40,559 nucleotides of DNA from a bacterium (GTDB taxonomy: Bacteria; Zixibacteria; MSB-5A5; WJJR01). The first letter of the stretch is position 1, and every line of letters begins with the position of its first letter. The notes beneath the pieces are model-generated. The model worked only from the letters and a program-made list of their open reading frames with translations. It was not told where the DNA came from and made no database searches. Below, piece after piece: positions 7,266 to 14,833 of the stretch. The DNA is taken from assembly GCA_021813505.1 (NCBI GenBank), contig JAKAKI010000077.1:1-40559 (forward strand), written 5' to 3'. A program made the position numbers and the translations under genes.

Positions 7266-9299
7266 TCACCAATCGCCGCCGCATCCTTTTTCCTGCCGCA
7301 ACGGTGCGGCGGTATTCAACCCCCGCTGAACCCAGGACGTGTCATTCCCGGCGAAGGGCATTTCCTTCGGATAGGTGTCTTTTCCGCTGGTGTCGAGAAA
7401 CACGCCGAGGGTGAGGATCGAATCACGCAGCGAACCCCGGCTGGTGAGATTGGCCCGGCCCAGAGTGGTTGCCTCTTTCACGCGGTATTCGTCATTGCCG
7501 GTCTTGTCCCAAAACAGGCCGATGCCGTTGTCATTGCCGCCACCCAATGAGAGATTGGGGGCGTCGTGCACGTCGTCACCCGCCTCGTCGACCAGATAGC
7601 CGATTGTCAAGTCGTGCCCCGCTCCCTGGGCCATGTTCATGGTCGCGATGTAGTGATCATTGCCGGCTTTGTCGTCGAGATACCCGACGCCAAAGTGCGC
7701 TCCGGACCCCTGCACATACCAGATCCCGTTGTACTTGTCGTTGCCCGCCTTGTCCCAGAGCACGCCGAGGCCATACCAATAAGCGCAGCCCTGCGCAAAC
7801 AAACCGGCGGAGTACTCATCATCACCCGCACCATCGATCAGGTAGCCGATACCGCCCGCAAGAGAATACCCATCGATGAAATCACGTCGCGCGCCGAATC
7901 CGCATCCCTGAGACATCGCATCATTGTGTTCCCTCGACTGGGACGAGGGAAAACGAATGTCTTTGTCGTTCGACGTGTACTTGTCGTCCCCCGACAGATC
8001 GAGCAGGAGCCCCATGCCCTTGGTGAATCCGTATCCCTGGGAACTCAGGTAGACGTCGTAATGATCGTTGCCGGTTGAATCGATCAACACGCCAAGGCCG
8101 AATGTCCCGGATCCTTGTGATGCCATGAACGCCGTGTACCGGTCTTTGCCCTGATCATCCATGAGCAATCCGACACCGAGGAGTCCGGCCCCCTGCGTAC
8201 ATTTCACTCCGTGGTATTGGTCGTCACCGCTGCGGTCGAGCAGGTACGCATAGCCCAGCACGCCACCGCCGAATGAGGGGAGAAGCGAGTCGCCGGCGGC
8301 ATCGTACTTGTCATCCCCACCGTCGTCGATGATCACGGAGACTGGATTCTTGTACGACCGATTGGCCGCGCCTGCGGCGTAGTGATCGTTGCCGCCCAAT
8401 TCGAGGATGATGAAATAGTCGCCAGCCGGGTAGTTGTCATTGGCGGTACCGCCGATGGCGATCAATCCCCAGGGCGTTTGGACGTTGCAGTGGAAGTCGC
8501 CCGACGATTGACCGGCATTGATTGTGTCGGCCGCCCAGCGGACGGCGCGCGCCAGGTCCTGGGCGCCAGCATACATGTATTTCCACTTCGGCCAGTGGAG
8601 AAACTCATAGAACGCCGGATCGTACGAGTCGTCCTTCTCCGCGTTGAGTCGGATCGCCCGATCGAACATCGTGTCCATCCTGCAGTGACGCTCCGCCTCA
8701 GCGAAGGTGAGCTTCCGCCACCGATAGGCGTCCATCGCGGCAAAGATGATCGCCGTCAAGGCGCACTTCGTCGGCCCGGGAAGTGTCATGAGATTCGACA
8801 GGGTGTCACCCGACAGGGTATGCCACCCGCGCCAGTCGGCGACGATGGCCAGTGAGTCCAGCGCATCAGCCGGATTGAACTCCTCGACGTACTTGCGATA
8901 GACAGTCAACGGGTCGCCGATCAACCCGCGGCGCGAGCCCTCGTTGATGCGCTGGGCACAAAAGCCCAGGACCGCCGATGGATTCTTCCAATTGTTGAGC
9001 AGGTAGCCGGCATGGAAATCGGTGTAGTACGGAATTCGAAACGGATGCTGATGCAATGTCTTGAACAGCGGCAGCACAAACTCGTCACCGCCGAAGTTGG
9101 ACATGTCCGCGGCATCAAAAGCGACATCGTCCGGCTTCATCCCAACCTGAGCGAGCACGCGTGCCCAAGGGTCAGCCGGCTCATTTGTCAGCGGGGGAGG
9201 GGCTTGTGGGAAGGCATTGCCGGCCAGCAACACCACAAGGAGTAAGGAGAGTCCCAATCGAAGGACGAATCTACTGTCACGCGGGAAATTGAATGTCAT
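7266..9299 (-). CDS. Exported protein with about twelve GxDxY repeats (unknown function)
   Basis: A 677-residue exported protein of unrecognised family. The signal peptide (FVLRLGLSLLLVVLLAGNAFPQA) follows the ATG at 9299, which has GGAGG nine bases upstream. Residues of about 30-290 form a helical, Trp/Tyr-rich region without known motifs. From about residue 300 to 640 a unit of roughly 30 residues recurs: GxGxLxDxxG(D/N)DxY followed by small residues and (S/A)QGxG. I count twelve copies, for example LDRSGDDQY, IDSTGNDHY, WDKAGNDKY. The regular Asp/Gly/Asn spacing suggests a parallel beta-helix or beta-roll, possibly calcium-binding as in RTX proteins, but the unit is longer than an RTX nonapeptide. 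The last repeats (LDTSGKDTY) are degenerate. Likely a surface or periplasmic structural or binding protein; enzymatic function cannot be claimed. Confidence 0.85.
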   Translation of the reverse strand: MTFNFPRDSRFVLRLGLSLLLVVLLAGNAFPQAPPPLTNEPADPWARVLAQVGMKPDDVAFDAADMSNFGGDEFVLPLFKTLHQHPFRIPYYTDFHAGYLLNNWKNPSAVLGFCAQRINEGSRRGLIGDPLTVYRKYVEEFNPADALDSLAIVADWRGWHTLSGDTLSNLMTLPGPTKCALTAIIFAAMDAYRWRKLTFAEAERHCRMDTMFDRAIRLNAEKDDSYDPAFYEFLHWPKWKYMYAGAQDLARAVRWAADTINAGQSSGDFHCNVQTPWGLIAIGGTANDNYPAGDYFIILELGGNDHYAAGAANRSYKNPVSVIIDDGGDDKYDAAGDSLLPSFGGGVLGYAYLLDRSGDDQYHGVKCTQGAGLLGVGLLMDDQGKDRYTAFMASQGSGTFGLGVLIDSTGNDHYDVYLSSQGYGFTKGMGLLLDLSGDDKYTSNDKDIRFPSSQSREHNDAMSQGCGFGARRDFIDGYSLAGGIGYLIDGAGDDEYSAGLFAQGCAYWYGLGVLWDKAGNDKYNGIWYVQGSGAHFGVGYLDDKAGNDHYIATMNMAQGAGHDLTIGYLVDEAGDDVHDAPNLSLGGGNDNGIGLFWDKTGNDEYRVKEATTLGRANLTSRGSLRDSILTLGVFLDTSGKDTYPKEMPFAGNDTSWVQRGLNTAAPLRQEKGCGGDW

Positions 9300-9704
9300 T
9301 TGTCGCAACCTCCATCCTGGTTCGATAAGCGGATAAGGTAGCGATTCTGAGGGCAACCATGACACGCCAATTTCGGGTCTCGTCGACCCAGTTCTCAGTA
9401 ACCTCTCAAGGAGGCGCCTCTCCAAGATCGTCGCAACGATGCGCCGAGGGCGCTTTTTCTTGCCCGCATGTCGCGCACACGGAGCTGGTCAGCGGGTCAA
9501 CGGGGACAGCCTATTGACGATGCCCCCTCACTGGATCGCATGCCCTGAGGCACGGAATCGCCGCCTGTGCTGGTGCAAGTATGCGAATTCGCGTCTGGAA
9601 CCCTTGGATTTGGTGACCCTATGAACTGGGACTTCCCCACGTCAAGAGACAATTGTCAGCACGCTCCATCTGGTGCAAACGCTGCTCTCAAAATCGATGA
9701 CTGG
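9300..9704. other. Gene-free interval between two leftward genes
   Basis: No convincing gene. It contains the leader of the GxDxY repeat gene, a GGAGGCGCCTC palindrome around 9411-9421, a short GCGCC/GGCGC hairpin with T5 on the plus strand (9441-9458), and the palindrome GACAATTGTC near 9649-9658. No clear promoter for the leftward gene was found. Confidence 0.5.
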
Positions 9705-12263
9705 CTACTTGATGATGACAATCTTCCCTATTTGCGATCCCGACCGTGAGTCGACCCTGTAAATGTATATGCCTGATGTCACCGGCTGCGCGTTGCGGCT
9801 GATCAAATCCCATCCGACTTCTGAAGAATACGTGGTCAGGAAACGGTCGGGATGATGGATCTCACGAATAAGGTCTCCCGCCAGCGTGTAGATTCGGATG
9901 GTGGCTGTGTCTGGAAGATTGATGAAGTGAATCCGCCGGTCGTATTCCGTCATCACGGGGTTGCCGTACCCCTCGTATCCCTCGGCGAAGTAGTTCGTCC
10001 GATGGCCGAACGCGTCATTGTAGGCAATTTTGTATGGATTCGGATACACTGACACTTTGATCCCGGAATCCTTCACCACATCAGCAGAGTAGATCGGCTG
10101 TCCATATTGGCTGTTGTTGGCGGGGGATGATTCCATCGGCTCAAGGTTTTTCTCGTAGTCGCCAAAATCGAACGTCGTGATCGCAAAATACAGCGGTACC
10201 GATGCTTGCAGATTGCTCAAACTCACTTCGTAAACGCCATAGGTCAGTTGCTCACCATCCACTATTGTGTCCCGTTGCGCCACCAGTTGGATGATGTTGG
10301 TCTCCGGACGGCCCTCATCGAGGTACTCATTGGCCCGGTTGGCAGCCTCGATCGCCCAGTACGAATACCGTTCTCGCTGCTGCACATTGATGATTTCTCC
10401 CGTCAACGTCCGCGTCGTGTCCCAGAACGAATCCACATAAGCGTCCCGCATGGAAGGTTTCACGAACCGCTGGGGTGCAAACCCCGGATTCCCCAGCACG
10501 AGCCGCCACTGGTCAACTGTCATCGGATCAGATATCTGCTGCCAGTCATTGGAACCCGCCTGATACGCCAGCCGCTTGAAGTCCTCCCGGTCCCAACTGG
10601 CGACCAGCGAAAGCTGGTCATCTGTGCTGAACCTCCCTGCATAGATGCGATACCCCTCGAAGTCACGTTTGCGGGAGATCGGGTCCCTCTCGAGTTCGGT
10701 CAAAGCGCCGTTCCAACGAAGGGCGGCCTTGCCCGGTCCAGTGACCAACTCGAAGCGTGGTGGGGTCGGTGCATGCGGTCCATTCCAGTCTGGTATCCCG
10801 TCCCCTTTGAAGAAGACCGAGTCACAGTGGGTGGAGTCCTGACCAGTGCAGTTCACTAAGTATGCTCGCCCCCGATTGCCGTTGTGATCGCTATCTACGC
10901 CGGGGTTATCAAACACCCAGTCCGCCCAGCGCGCGTTGGTGATCAGATCCGAGAAGTTTAGGTGACTAAGGTATGGCTGAGGATCTCTAGGGTTGAAGCG
11001 GTCGGCGAAGTTGTATGGGTCAGTGTGGAAGTTGTCTCCGGCAATAAGGGCCACTGTGAATGCGACTGAATCACCAATGGCAATGCTGGAAAGGGGCCCA
11101 TACGAGAGCAGGAAGTCTGCATGAGCACCTTCGGCAATCTCACGTGCGCCCTTTTCCATAAGAAGCGGTGGGCTCCATCCGTTCGGGGACATGTCGACAG
11201 CAGCGAAAGCCTGATCATAATCAACTTCACCGTTGAGCATCATCCTGTACCGATAACGATCTCCGTACGGCGCCCCGAGAGAGCCGCTTGCGCCTGCAAT
11301 GACCCCCGCTCCTCTCGGGCCCCAACTGCCTCCATCAGAAGTGTAGGCCCACCAGTTGAAGCTAGGCAGTCCGCCGGAAGGGGAACGCAGCGCTCGAACA
11401 CCCAACACACCACGCACGCTGTAACTCGCGAAGGTTCCATCGGCAGCAGGGTCACCGGTTGTGCACGCCGCCCAAGCGATGTTGACTGTGTCCTCCATTC
11501 CCTTGACTATTCCTTCAGCGACTGGCAGGAATCCGCAAATATTCCCTAGAGTCCCAACATCATGAGGCGTGCGATCAGAGTAGATTGCCGGATTCACTTC
11601 GAAACCAATGGCCACATTCTCGATGGGGACCTTACCGATGTTCTTCAGCCAGTAATTCACGATAATGAATCTGCTGGCGAAGCCGTTTGACCATGAAAGA
11701 CTGGTTTGGTGAATCTCAAGTCCGATGGGCTTATGCCTCCTGCCGTCGGCCGCGTCGATGAAATTCGGAAACACCGTGGTGTCGAAGAACACCGCGTAAT
11801 ACTCTTGCTCCGCCAAAGCGGAGGCATCGTATGCTGACGAGGCGGGAGAATTAGAGAGTTCGCGAATCGGCTGGTACGAGATGAACTCGACCTGCGGTTC
11901 ACCGAAGCGATCAGCAAAAGCGCTTACAAGAGTGTCCGTTCCCCTTACGCACCCGAATACCAGGCTTGCTGTGTACAGATAATCGTTGCGGGTTCCCGTC
12001 GGGAACTCAAATGACGGAATCCAATCGATACCCAGTTTCGCTCGGTCCATCACAGGGTCCGGGATGTTTCGCGGGGTGCTCAATGGTCCACGGCCCCCAC
12101 CTACAAATCCCACATTGCTCACGGCTGCCCACACTCGGCCGACATAATGGAGTCGACCGTCAATCGTGAATTGGGTCTCAGGTCCTGCGGGAAGAACTTG
12201 CCCGCGGTTCAAGGCAGCAGGCGCCGAGCGATGGCAGAAGAGGAGCAACATCAGAAGGCCCAT
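9705..12263 (-). CDS. Large secreted protein with C-terminal sorting-like (FlgD-Ig/Por-tail type) domain
   Basis: An 852-residue exported protein of unknown function. ATG 12263 is preferred: GGGGGAG lies eight bases ahead and the next residues (MGLLMLLLFCHRSAPA) look like a signal core. An alternative in-frame ATG at 12326 would add a basic 21-residue extension. The body is rich in aromatic and Gly/Asp residues and includes fibronectin-like strand patterns (PPRFELVTGPGKAALRW, YRIYAG). The last ~110 residues match the sorting-like module of FCB bacteria: VYPNPYK, then IHFINLPDTATIRIYTL, AGDLIREI, WDL, SGIYIYRV and the terminal IGKIVIIK. Such tails resemble the T9SS/FlgD-Ig class and suggest export to the surface or medium. 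It stands divergent to the thioredoxin-like gene. Confidence 0.85.
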   Translation of the reverse strand: MGLLMLLLFCHRSAPAALNRGQVLPAGPETQFTIDGRLHYVGRVWAAVSNVGFVGGGRGPLSTPRNIPDPVMDRAKLGIDWIPSFEFPTGTRNDYLYTASLVFGCVRGTDTLVSAFADRFGEPQVEFISYQPIRELSNSPASSAYDASALAEQEYYAVFFDTTVFPNFIDAADGRRHKPIGLEIHQTSLSWSNGFASRFIIVNYWLKNIGKVPIENVAIGFEVNPAIYSDRTPHDVGTLGNICGFLPVAEGIVKGMEDTVNIAWAACTTGDPAADGTFASYSVRGVLGVRALRSPSGGLPSFNWWAYTSDGGSWGPRGAGVIAGASGSLGAPYGDRYRYRMMLNGEVDYDQAFAAVDMSPNGWSPPLLMEKGAREIAEGAHADFLLSYGPLSSIAIGDSVAFTVALIAGDNFHTDPYNFADRFNPRDPQPYLSHLNFSDLITNARWADWVFDNPGVDSDHNGNRGRAYLVNCTGQDSTHCDSVFFKGDGIPDWNGPHAPTPPRFELVTGPGKAALRWNGALTELERDPISRKRDFEGYRIYAGRFSTDDQLSLVASWDREDFKRLAYQAGSNDWQQISDPMTVDQWRLVLGNPGFAPQRFVKPSMRDAYVDSFWDTTRTLTGEIINVQQRERYSYWAIEAANRANEYLDEGRPETNIIQLVAQRDTIVDGEQLTYGVYEVSLSNLQASVPLYFAITTFDFGDYEKNLEPMESSPANNSQYGQPIYSADVVKDSGIKVSVYPNPYKIAYNDAFGHRTNYFAEGYEGYGNPVMTEYDRRIHFINLPDTATIRIYTLAGDLIREIHHPDRFLTTYSSEVGWDLISRNAQPVTSGIYIYRVDSRSGSQIGKIVIIK

Positions 12264-12354: not shown

Positions 12355-12387
12355 TTGACAAGGATAGGGGGGGGGGGGGGGTAAACT
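12355..12387 (+). promoter_or_regulatory. Possible promoter with a 15-G spacer tract
   Basis: TTGACA (12355-12360) is followed by AGGATA, an uninterrupted run of 15 G (12367-12381) and TAAACT (12382-12387). Spacing between the boxes is 21 bases; loss of four G would give 17. The layout resembles phase-variable promoters where a homopolymer sets the -35/-10 distance, as in neisserial porA. The tract length may also be a sequencing artefact. Confidence 0.45.
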
Positions 12388-12438
12388 GTCAACAGGTAAT
12401 TTCTATTTGGCGCAATCGTGCAAGATGGGAGAACGCGG

Positions 12439-13038
12439 ATGGTTTCAATTGGTTCATTCGGTCGAGTATTGCGCTCAATCATACTTCTAGCCGTAGTGCT
12501 AGTACTGGGATGGGGTGCGGGCTCATTGTTTGGGCGCAAGCAGGTGCAAGGTCTGACCGCTGCTCGAAAGGAGGCGCAGGCCAAGGATGTGCGTGCAGGA
12601 GTCGTCGGAATCGCAATCGGCGCACCATTCCCTCCACTGGTTGTCTGGTCACCGGACAATCTGAACTCGCATCGTCTTCGTGATCTGGTCACTCGGAACA
12701 CTGTGGTGCTCTTGGCATCTCCAGGGTGCGATGTCTGCATCAGCGCCGCCGAAAGTTTGCGCAGCGTTCTACTGGGGGATGGACCATATCCGGCCAAAGG
12801 CATTCTACTAACTGATAAGGCTTCCGGGACCCTTGAATTTGCGGGCCTTGTGAAAGAGCGCGGGATCAAATTCGATGTGTACTCGGACTCACAAGAATTG
12901 CTGCGCGGCCAGCATAAGGTCTACGCCAATCCGGTCTACTTTTGTCTGGATAGCGCAAGTACCATTCTAGATCTCGGAGTTGGCGTGCCGGATGCTGCCC
13001 GCTTGAAACAGGTATTCAATGCTGGGAAAACACCCTGA
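12439..13038 (+). CDS. Membrane-anchored thioredoxin-like (redoxin) protein
   Basis: A 199-residue protein with an N-terminal hydrophobic anchor (about 10-30, VLRSIILLAVVLVLGWGAG) and a periplasmic thioredoxin-fold domain. The domain order fits AhpC/TSA or TlpA-like proteins: GAPFPPL entry strand, VVLLASPGCDVC with the redox pair Cys97-Cys100, then a Pro-containing ANPVYFCLD segment in the cis-Pro position. A third cysteine (in YFCLD) is not part of the active site. ATG 12439 is preferred over an in-frame GTG at 12418 because a GGGAGA lies just upstream. The gene is 35 bases ahead of an eight-cysteine exported peptide, suggesting a role in forming or reducing its disulfides (inference). Transcription may depend on the poly-G promoter. 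Confidence 0.8.
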   Translation: MVSIGSFGRVLRSIILLAVVLVLGWGAGSLFGRKQVQGLTAARKEAQAKDVRAGVVGIAIGAPFPPLVVWSPDNLNSHRLRDLVTRNTVVLLASPGCDVCISAAESLRSVLLGDGPYPAKGILLTDKASGTLEFAGLVKERGIKFDVYSDSQELLRGQHKVYANPVYFCLDSASTILDLGVGVPDAARLKQVFNAGKTP

Positions 13039-13073: not shown

Positions 13074-13307
13074 ATGAAGAGGAATCTGGCAGGCTCTACA
13101 AAGGTGCTACTGATCGCGTTCGTATTCGCGTTTGGAGTAGGGGCAGCATATCAAGTTGCAATAGCAGACATTAATCATTGCACTTGCGGATGCACCTACA
13201 CATGTCCCTACTCAGGCAGTATCAAGATCGGCAAACCCACGGACTGTACTAAGCCGCAAGAAACCTGCGCCAATAACCCTCTTTGTGATCTGTGCGTACC
13301 GAATTGA
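13074..13307 (+). CDS. Small exported cysteine-rich peptide (8 Cys)
   Basis: A 77-residue precursor. Basic MKRNLAGSTK, a hydrophobic core (VLLIAFVFAFGVGAA) and AIA before the mature part look like a Sec signal with cleavage near residue 31. The mature peptide of about 46 residues has eight cysteines (36, 38, 40, 44, 58, 65, 71, 74), with the cluster CTCGCTYTC and the ending CDLCVPN. An unusually strong ribosome site (GGGAGGAGG) precedes the ATG. No family is recognised. Four disulfides or metal binding are both possible. The preceding thioredoxin-like gene is 35 bases away in the same direction, so co-transcription is likely. Although short, the ribosome site, signal peptide and cysteine pattern argue that it is real. 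Confidence 0.75.
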   Translation: MKRNLAGSTKVLLIAFVFAFGVGAAYQVAIADINHCTCGCTYTCPYSGSIKIGKPTDCTKPQETCANNPLCDLCVPN

Positions 13308-13803
13308 TCTCTTAGAGTGGTGTTCCGATGGCGGTCGGGAAAGGGAAGCCGGGCCATCCCGGCTTCTCCTGCTTGGTGCCCTGCAGCTCCGGGACGCATT
13401 GAAAGACCGGGCAGACAAGAGTGTCTGCCCCACTCTTGGTCATGGGAGTTCTTGTCTCTCGGTGGCGCGGACACTCCTCTCCGCGCTCTCGTCAGCCGAT
13501 GCTGGGGTTCTTCAACGCGTCCCGGAGCCACGGGGCACCTGGGTCGTAACGATTACTGGCTTTGAGTACTGATTCATACACGGGTGTCCGCTGGAGGGAC
13601 ACACACAATACCGCCGGTGGGTTCGGGCGGCCCTGGCAGCCGCAAAGCGAGCGATCTGCTGTTTCGATACACCGGTCCAAATCACGTTCCACCGCCATTG
13701 CCCTCCGGTCCCGCGTGTCATAGCTTTGGGTTCGACCGTGGACGGTGTGGCTAACTGAGTATGGTTGGGTGGCTTGATCCGAACCAGGAAGTGGGAGGGG
13801 ATT
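13308..13803. other. Gene-free interval holding a 123-bp palindromic repeat
   Basis: No convincing gene. It contains repeat copy 1 (13396-13518), flanked by GCTCCGGGAC/GTCCCGGAGC arms, and a GTGTCC/GGACAC hairpin near 13585-13603. The rest (13604-13790) is unassigned; a minus-strand open frame there has no recognisable domain or ribosome site. Confidence 0.5.
13396..13518. repeat. Dispersed 123-bp palindromic element, copy 1
   Basis: Same length as the copy at 36444-36566, with about 16 mismatches by eye. Ends are imperfect inverted repeats (GCATTGAAAGACC against TTCTTCAACGC) and here the pairing extends about ten bases into the flanks. Internal stems include CAAGAGTG/CACTCTTG and the GCGCGGA...TCCGCGC region. 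No coding capacity for transposition; a MITE-like or REP-like element. Confidence 0.8.
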
Positions 13804-14110: not shown

Positions 14111-14833
14111 ATGGAATTCGACCAAGCTGAATTCGACGTCCGTTGTGAATGGGGCGAACGGGGCGTCGCGCATCTTGCACCCATCAGCGACGCCGTCATC
14201 ATCGTTGACGTCATGTCGTTTTCGACATGCGTGTCAGTGGCGGCGGCACGGGGTACCATCGTCTATCCCTGTCCCTTGATGGACGATGCCGCGATAGAGT
14301 TTGCTCGATCCGTCGGCGGCGAACTTGCCACGGCACGAGGCAAGGGCCGCTACTCGCTGTCACCGCGTTCTCTGGTCGATCTGCCGGTTGGCACGCGCCT
14401 TGTGCTGCCATCACCGAATGGTTCCACCTTGAGTCTTGCTACAGGGCAAACTCCGACGTTTGCTGGTTGCCTGCGCAACTCCAGGGCGGTTGCCGAGGCC
14501 GCCCAGAAGCGCGGCCGTAGGATTGCCGTCATACCGGCCGGAGAAAAATGGAAGGAGGACGCAAGCTTGCGTCCCGCTATCGAAGACTTGATTGGTGCCG
14601 GTGCCATCATTCGACATTTGATGGGCAGACACTCACCTGAAGCCGAACTCGCGACGAGTGCATTCCTGAGCGCAGCGCCTGAGCTTAACAACAAACTCCA
14701 GGCATGCTCGTCTGGCCAGGAGCTTGTGGCGATGGGGTTTGAGATAGACATTGCGTTGATTGCTGCCCTCGACGCAGACGACTGTGCACCGATCCTGAGG
14801 GATGGAGCATACAGCAAAGCAGAACAAATGTGA
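14111..14833 (+). CDS. comB: 2-phosphosulfolactate phosphatase family protein (ComB)
   Basis: A 240-residue ComB-family protein (2-phosphosulfolactate phosphatase, Mg-dependent). In methanogens ComB dephosphorylates 2-phosphosulfolactate on the way to coenzyme M; bacterial homologues are common and often of unproven substrate. Visible family features are VIIVDVMSFSTCVSVA near the start (the DVxxxST motif), LPSPNGSTLS in the middle, and the VIPAGE...LRPAIEDLIGAGAII segment, typical of the active-site region. No other coenzyme M or sulfolactate gene is nearby, so a role in coenzyme M synthesis is unlikely here. Its length is usual for the family. The start lacks a strong ribosome site but nothing better lies upstream. 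Confidence 0.85.
   Translation: MEFDQAEFDVRCEWGERGVAHLAPISDAVIIVDVMSFSTCVSVAAARGTIVYPCPLMDDAAIEFARSVGGELATARGKGRYSLSPRSLVDLPVGTRLVLPSPNGSTLSLATGQTPTFAGCLRNSRAVAEAAQKRGRRIAVIPAGEKWKEDASLRPAIEDLIGAGAIIRHLMGRHSPEAELATSAFLSAAPELNNKLQACSSGQELVAMGFEIDIALIAALDADDCAPILRDGAYSKAEQM

Follow-up and report, generated by a model that had tools for sequence, protein, structure and literature searches.

A 15-G tract between divergent genes of a Zixibacteria genome is a candidate promoter-spacer switch for a secreted module

Introduction

Phase variation through altered promoter spacing is known mainly from host-restricted pathogens such as Neisseria, Treponema and Haemophilus. In Neisseria meningitidis a poly-G tract (11G in the strain studied) lies between the -35 and -10 boxes of porA, and its contraction to 9G or 10G alters expression of the surface protein (PMC3639595). 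Poly-G tracts are also present in promoters of outer-membrane protein genes of Treponema pallidum, tp0126 and tpr, with tp0126 being optimal at a 17-base spacing (PMC7864442). In H. influenzae the divergent fimbrial genes hifA and hifB share a promoter region containing a TA repeat which is proposed to alter the distance between the -35 and -10 boxes (PMC2651432, citing van Ham 1993 and Geluk 1998). A literature search for phase variation in Zixibacteria found nothing relevant.

Here we describe a tract of 15 Gs (G15) on a 40,559-nucleotide contig of a Zixibacteria genome, analysed at its full length and termed the window. As in porA, the tract is a poly-G within a -35/-10 spacer, but porA is read in one direction only, and expression change and antibody escape have been shown for it, whereas the window is known from its sequence alone. 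The same limit applies to the comparison with hifA/hifB, which in the account cited above likewise have a short repeat in a promoter region common to two divergent surface-structure genes; there the repeat is the dinucleotide TA and the genes are fimbrial, while in the window a mononucleotide G tract separates a type IX-secreted protein from a thioredoxin-like/cysteine-peptide pair. The tp0126 and tpr promoters share the poly-G but belong to other gene families in another phylum, and their length variation has been measured by fragment analysis. The mechanism is known, and it is the module, the phylum and the breadth of occurrence that appear to be new.

Results and discussion

The G15 tract lies in the spacer of a forward promoter and of a candidate reverse promoter

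The features of the locus are as follows.

9705..12263, minus strand: divergent 852-aa secreted protein, with a type IX-type C-terminal sorting domain at 9714-9968
12355..12360, plus strand: -35 box TTGACA of the forward promoter, recurring at paralogues and relatives
12361..12366, minus strand: -10 box TATCCT of the candidate reverse promoter (AGGATA on the plus strand)
12367..12381, plus strand: G15 homopolymer, spacer of the forward and candidate reverse promoters
12382..12387, plus strand: -10 box TAAACT of the forward promoter, 21 bases from TTGACA
12387..12392, minus strand: -35 box TTGACA of the candidate reverse promoter
12439..13038, plus strand: membrane-anchored thioredoxin-like protein with a CDVC motif, 199 aa from the ATG, resembling ResA/StoA-type proteins
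13074..13307, plus strand: 77-aa peptide with a hydrophobic leader and 8 cysteines
13345..13366, plus strand: GC hairpin GAAGCCGGG-CCAT-CCCGGCTTC without a T run, 3' of the cysteine peptide, read by eye

A preliminary description had placed TTGACA, G15 and TAAACT, with a 21-base spacer, upstream of a thioredoxin/cysteine-peptide pair. Boxes, order and spacing are all present, but the tract does not follow TTGACA directly: six bases, AGGATA, had been left out. G15 is the sole run of at least eight Gs or Cs in the window and starts 51 bases 5' of the first start codon of a 206-aa thioredoxin-like open reading frame. The 3.89-Mb genome has 23 runs of at least nine Gs on both strands together, several of which are contig-end junk, and its remaining long G runs are mostly such junk or in-frame coding runs. 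All promoter boxes discussed here, in the window, at paralogues and in relatives, are consensus matches. A standard promoter scan called no promoter in the region because it permits spacers of 16-18 bases only. Folding of the tract region as single-stranded DNA gave no better result than shuffled sequences, and Rfam, Pfam and NCBIfam provided no name for the promoter region or the cysteine peptide.

The tract is flanked by genes for predicted secreted and membrane-anchored proteins

The reading frame of the thioredoxin-like gene is open from GTG 12418 (206 aa), with GGGAG at 12427-12431 preceding ATG 12439, the probable start. Its profile matches ResA/StoA-type thiol-disulfide oxidoreductases (PDB entries 4nmu, 1st9 and 3erw, E 8e-9), and like those of the TlpA/ResA type the protein combines a CxxC thioredoxin domain, in which C104 and C107 are invariant, with an N-terminal membrane anchor read from the sequence. 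It differs from them in being the dedicated neighbour of a cysteine peptide and in having no Pfam or NCBIfam match, the Pfam family cut-off not being reached; the homologue in G008 passes Pfam AhpC-TSA. A structure model built without an alignment was poor. Hairpins similar to the one 3' of the cysteine peptide, a possible transcript end, also follow the peptide in relatives.

The divergent 852-aa protein scores 27.1 bits against TIGR04183, above the curated cut-off of 23, and SprA of the type IX translocon is encoded in the same genome (641 bits). Its sorting domain scores 22.9 bits in a protein-level scan and falls under the cut-off in Pfam, and we regard the protein as a marginal member of the type IX cargo. 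Among local matches of its model (pLDDT 71) were beta-rich carbohydrate enzymes, the YidC periplasmic domain, PorU and PorZ, all of them weak (TM about 0.2) and not taken as a guide to function.

Further out, a 719-aa open reading frame at 7266-9425 on the minus strand contains many GNDxY/GGDDxY repeats and has no match in Pfam or NCBIfam, while 14111-14833 on the plus strand encodes a 2-phosphosulpholactate phosphatase family protein (PF04029), followed by a DUF2339 membrane protein.

A single tract probably separates the boxes of two antiparallel promoters

On the minus strand, TTGACA (12392-12387), the 20 bases GTTTA-C15 and TATCCT (12366-12361) face the gene for the 852-aa protein. Reverse boxes were also found at G000:C70 (TTGACA-16-TAGTAT), G000:C82 (TTGACA-18-TAGACT) and G001:C121 (TTGTCA-20-TATGGT), and at G004:C11, where the -10 is weak. 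Same-strand tract promoters that we inspected were without minus-strand boxes. We conclude that two antiparallel promoters probably share one tract as their spacer, the reverse one serving the 852-aa gene.

Alternatively, only the forward gene pair might be switched, the minus-strand TTGACA/TATCCT being a coincidence or the TTGACA...TGTCAA dyad a regulator's site. The reverse boxes are indeed missing or weak at three other divergent loci, G004:C4 (L049), G048 (L071) and G014 (L130). However, the four loci with minus-strand box pairs (the window, C70, C82 and G001:C121) are all divergent, and the dyad is absent from the same-strand promoters, which fits a second promoter rather than an operator. 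We give forward-only switching substantial weight, well short of even.

The reading that we consider probable is that G15, as spacer of a sigma-70-type promoter and most likely also of a second, antiparallel one interleaved with it, is prone to slippage. Slippage at replication would add or remove Gs, and since a tract of n Gs gives spacers of n+6 bases forward and n+5 in reverse, each change would move both spacings together through a 17-base optimum, reached at n = 11 in the forward direction and n = 12 in reverse. At n = 15 both promoters would be weak. Changes in tract length would thereby produce random, heritable changes in expression of a surface or secreted module, the forward output being the thioredoxin-like gene and cysteine peptide and the reverse output the divergent type IX-secreted protein. 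We infer that the tract slips in the living population, that this affects transcription and that the reverse promoter is used. Several of its features are those of described systems: the homopolymer lies within a -35/-10 spacer, the products are predicted to be surface-exposed or secreted (a leader-bearing cysteine peptide; a type IX sorting domain together with SprA), and, as in combined divergent promoters, consensus boxes occur on both strands at four loci.

The arrangement recurs upstream of thioredoxin-like genes across the class

A search of 132 genomes of the class for the pattern TTGACA-N(0-14)-G8 located 51 distinct sites in 34 of them, while a reversed control pattern gave at most 20 raw matches, so that the arrangement is not due to chance. 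Examples upstream of homologues, some with G and others with C runs, are listed below.

G000:C70, G run: TTGACA-N11-G9-CAATTT
G001:C121, G run: TTGACA-N7-G14-CATTTT
G004:C11, G run: TTGACA-N10-G8-TACGCT
G051, G run: TTGACA-N7-G13-TATTAT
G008, C run: TTGACA-T-C13-TTGGTGTAAATT
G092, C run: TTGACA-N5-C9-TGGG-TATATT
G014, C run: TTGACA-G-C13-N7-TAAAAT

Seventeen G or C runs of at least 8 were found in the 20 kb upstream of 60 homologues, compared with four in the remaining 172 kb of the same loci, a 36-fold higher density, and most of the upstream runs sit between TTGACA and a TATAAT-like box. Two observations count against a switch: 43 of the 60 homologues have no upstream run of at least eight, and the forward -10 is weak at some paralogues (CAATTT, CATTTT). 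Class-wide, TTGACA-Gn sites often lie 5' of leader-bearing or lipoprotein-like genes, as judged by eye and without statistics.

These comparisons bear on whether G15 could be a sequencing or assembly artefact of two-colour poly-G, or have a meaningless length. Poly-G junk is indeed evident in this assembly, both within C23 and where contigs C10 and C21 end. The window tract, by contrast, is internal with unique sequence on both sides, and its position and orientation relative to TTGACA and the gene family are repeated in separate assemblies, in some of them as C runs, which makes an artefact very improbable. Since similar unstable runs accompany this gene cluster in many relatives, the tract probably acts as a random on/off switch, as in Neisseria and Haemophilus. 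The earlier proposal of a porA-like spacer tract, for which comparison with related genomes had been recommended, thus gains support from paralogues and from many genomes of the class, and the locus is a strong candidate for such a promoter.

Spacings suggest that the tract moves promoters away from 17 bases

For 78 distinct sites in the class where TTGACA precedes a tract, the best-scoring -10 beyond the tract clearly exceeded control windows lying further downstream (P 1.4e-10), the enrichment holding for G sites (P 5e-10) and C sites (P 0.008). As in our other tests, related sequences are among those compared. At thioredoxin-like loci with a usable TTGACA promoter, to which this comparison of small samples of related sequences is confined, tract-bearing spacers measured 16, 18, 18, 20, 20, 21 and 21 bases, while tract-free spacers ranged from 15 to 19 and were 17 in 8 of 14 (P 0.003). 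This contrast suggests that promoters of this group work at a spacing of 17 and are shifted away from it by the tract. Over all 78 sites, however, the best spacings peak at 19-20 rather than 17, which counts against a switch; these may be snapshots of weak states or may reflect a different rule.

Tract lengths and positions differ between lineages

Length differences were seen between paralogues, between orthologues or at contig ends, none being one locus in two strains, and they come from a set of one genome per species in which poly-G lengths of draft assemblies are unreliable. Two near-identical upstream regions in G080 have C9 and C10, and G022 and G077 differ at an orthologous promoter, with G12 and G9 respectively. 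In a G041 lipoprotein family TTGACAACTC-A/C-TTGA is followed by G9, G9, G10 and G11; the small lipoprotein paralogues L140, L141 and L142 of this genome each have their own TTGACA-G9/G10/G11 promoter. Two contigs of the source assembly, C64 (end, L026) and C62 (start, L025), carry G12 and G10 in identical flanks (15 bases before, 116 after) upstream of a lipoprotein-like gene; this is either tract heterogeneity or sequencing error, at a locus other than the window tract. Our contig search for a second strain yielded a single relative (a Candidatus Zixiibacteriota groundwater MAG) and no second strain.

In five loci the tract lies at the 5' coding end instead, in each case out of frame with the thioredoxin-like domain. 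The G034 gene starts GTG CAA CAC TCG C9 TGA, with the domain in another frame, and three copies in G022 and one in G064 have G7, G7, G6 and G6. These copies could be off-phase or decaying. That an unstable tract is differently placed in one operon across lineages is the strongest argument for selection on switching.

The same variety bears on a reading of the tract as a fixed regulatory element. Its G-rich spacer would be long, 19-21 bases, and in practice invariable, with an activator compensating by MerR-like distortion or a protein that reads G tracts binding to it. The peak at 19-20 over the class-wide sites is what such an element would give. Yet the runs extend from 7 to 15 at offsets of 1-12 from TTGACA, some are G and others C, the spacer is without a dyad, and in five homologues tracts lie inside coding sequence; we consider a fixed element unlikely.

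The associated genes form a recurring module

Homologues of the thioredoxin-like protein are encoded in 68 of the 132 genomes, although the weaker matches among these may be general thioredoxins. At 39 of 55 loci a hydrophobic-leader peptide with at least three cysteines follows 3' of the gene. The cysteine number is even in 35 of 38 peptides (P 3e-8; the frameshifted G001:C121 copy omitted), as expected for disulfide-bonded peptides. A large secreted protein is encoded divergently or downstream at 30 of 60 loci, and in most pairs of its paralogues DNA identity is about 40-60% in the N-terminal part and about 80-95% at the C-terminal end. This contrast suggests recombination or gene conversion and resembles polymorphic surface proteins. 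The paralogues compared with the 852-aa protein were L199-L204 and L214, with a fast-diverging N-terminal and a nearly conserved C-terminal half. Judged by sequence character, the module would pair a secreted, disulfide-bonded peptide with the thioredoxin-like protein as its thiol-disulfide partner, and would further include a secreted protein whose N-terminal half changes fast. Decayed copies also occur: the C70 peptide has an in-frame TAG (L041, about 2238-2250), and at G001:C121 (L033, 1460-2300) the membrane anchor is lost and the peptide frameshifted.

The decayed look of G001:C121 counts against a switch, and decay of this kind would fit a neutral relic, in which the tract came from slippage at a weak promoter while its gene family was decaying, and plays no part in switching. 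The window copy, though, is intact, and without selection it is hard to explain why runs should be 36 times as dense at this single gene family, in many families of the class, and why tracts should occupy two different functional positions. We regard a neutral relic as quite unlikely.

Extending the preferred switch reading beyond the window, a class-wide contingency system may exist: through two interleaved antiparallel promoters, one homopolymer would switch the disulfide-rich peptide and its own thioredoxin-like partner together with a type IX-secreted protein that is polymorphic. The unstable tract would have changed place as lineages diverged, lying in the promoter spacer (as G or C) in some and at the 5' end of the coding sequence of the same operon in others. 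Such movement would be a sign that switching is selected, perhaps by phage or by competition among kin. We give this extension slightly less than even weight. If it is correct, an uncultured phylum of the environment repeatedly applies spacer switching to a single secreted module, itself uncharacterised, which would suggest that phage, predators or neighbours, and not host immunity alone, can drive promoter-spacer phase variation. The analysis also points to a family of disulfide-type peptides, as yet unannotated, that has a thioredoxin-like partner of its own.

Among other long G runs of the source assembly, those at G000:C10:7507-7525, C21:6234-6255 and C23:20091-20202 lie at contig ends or in G/T-rich debris and look like two-colour artefacts. 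Contig C21 also reads TTGACATG-C22, possibly another tract promoter, truncated where the contig stops.
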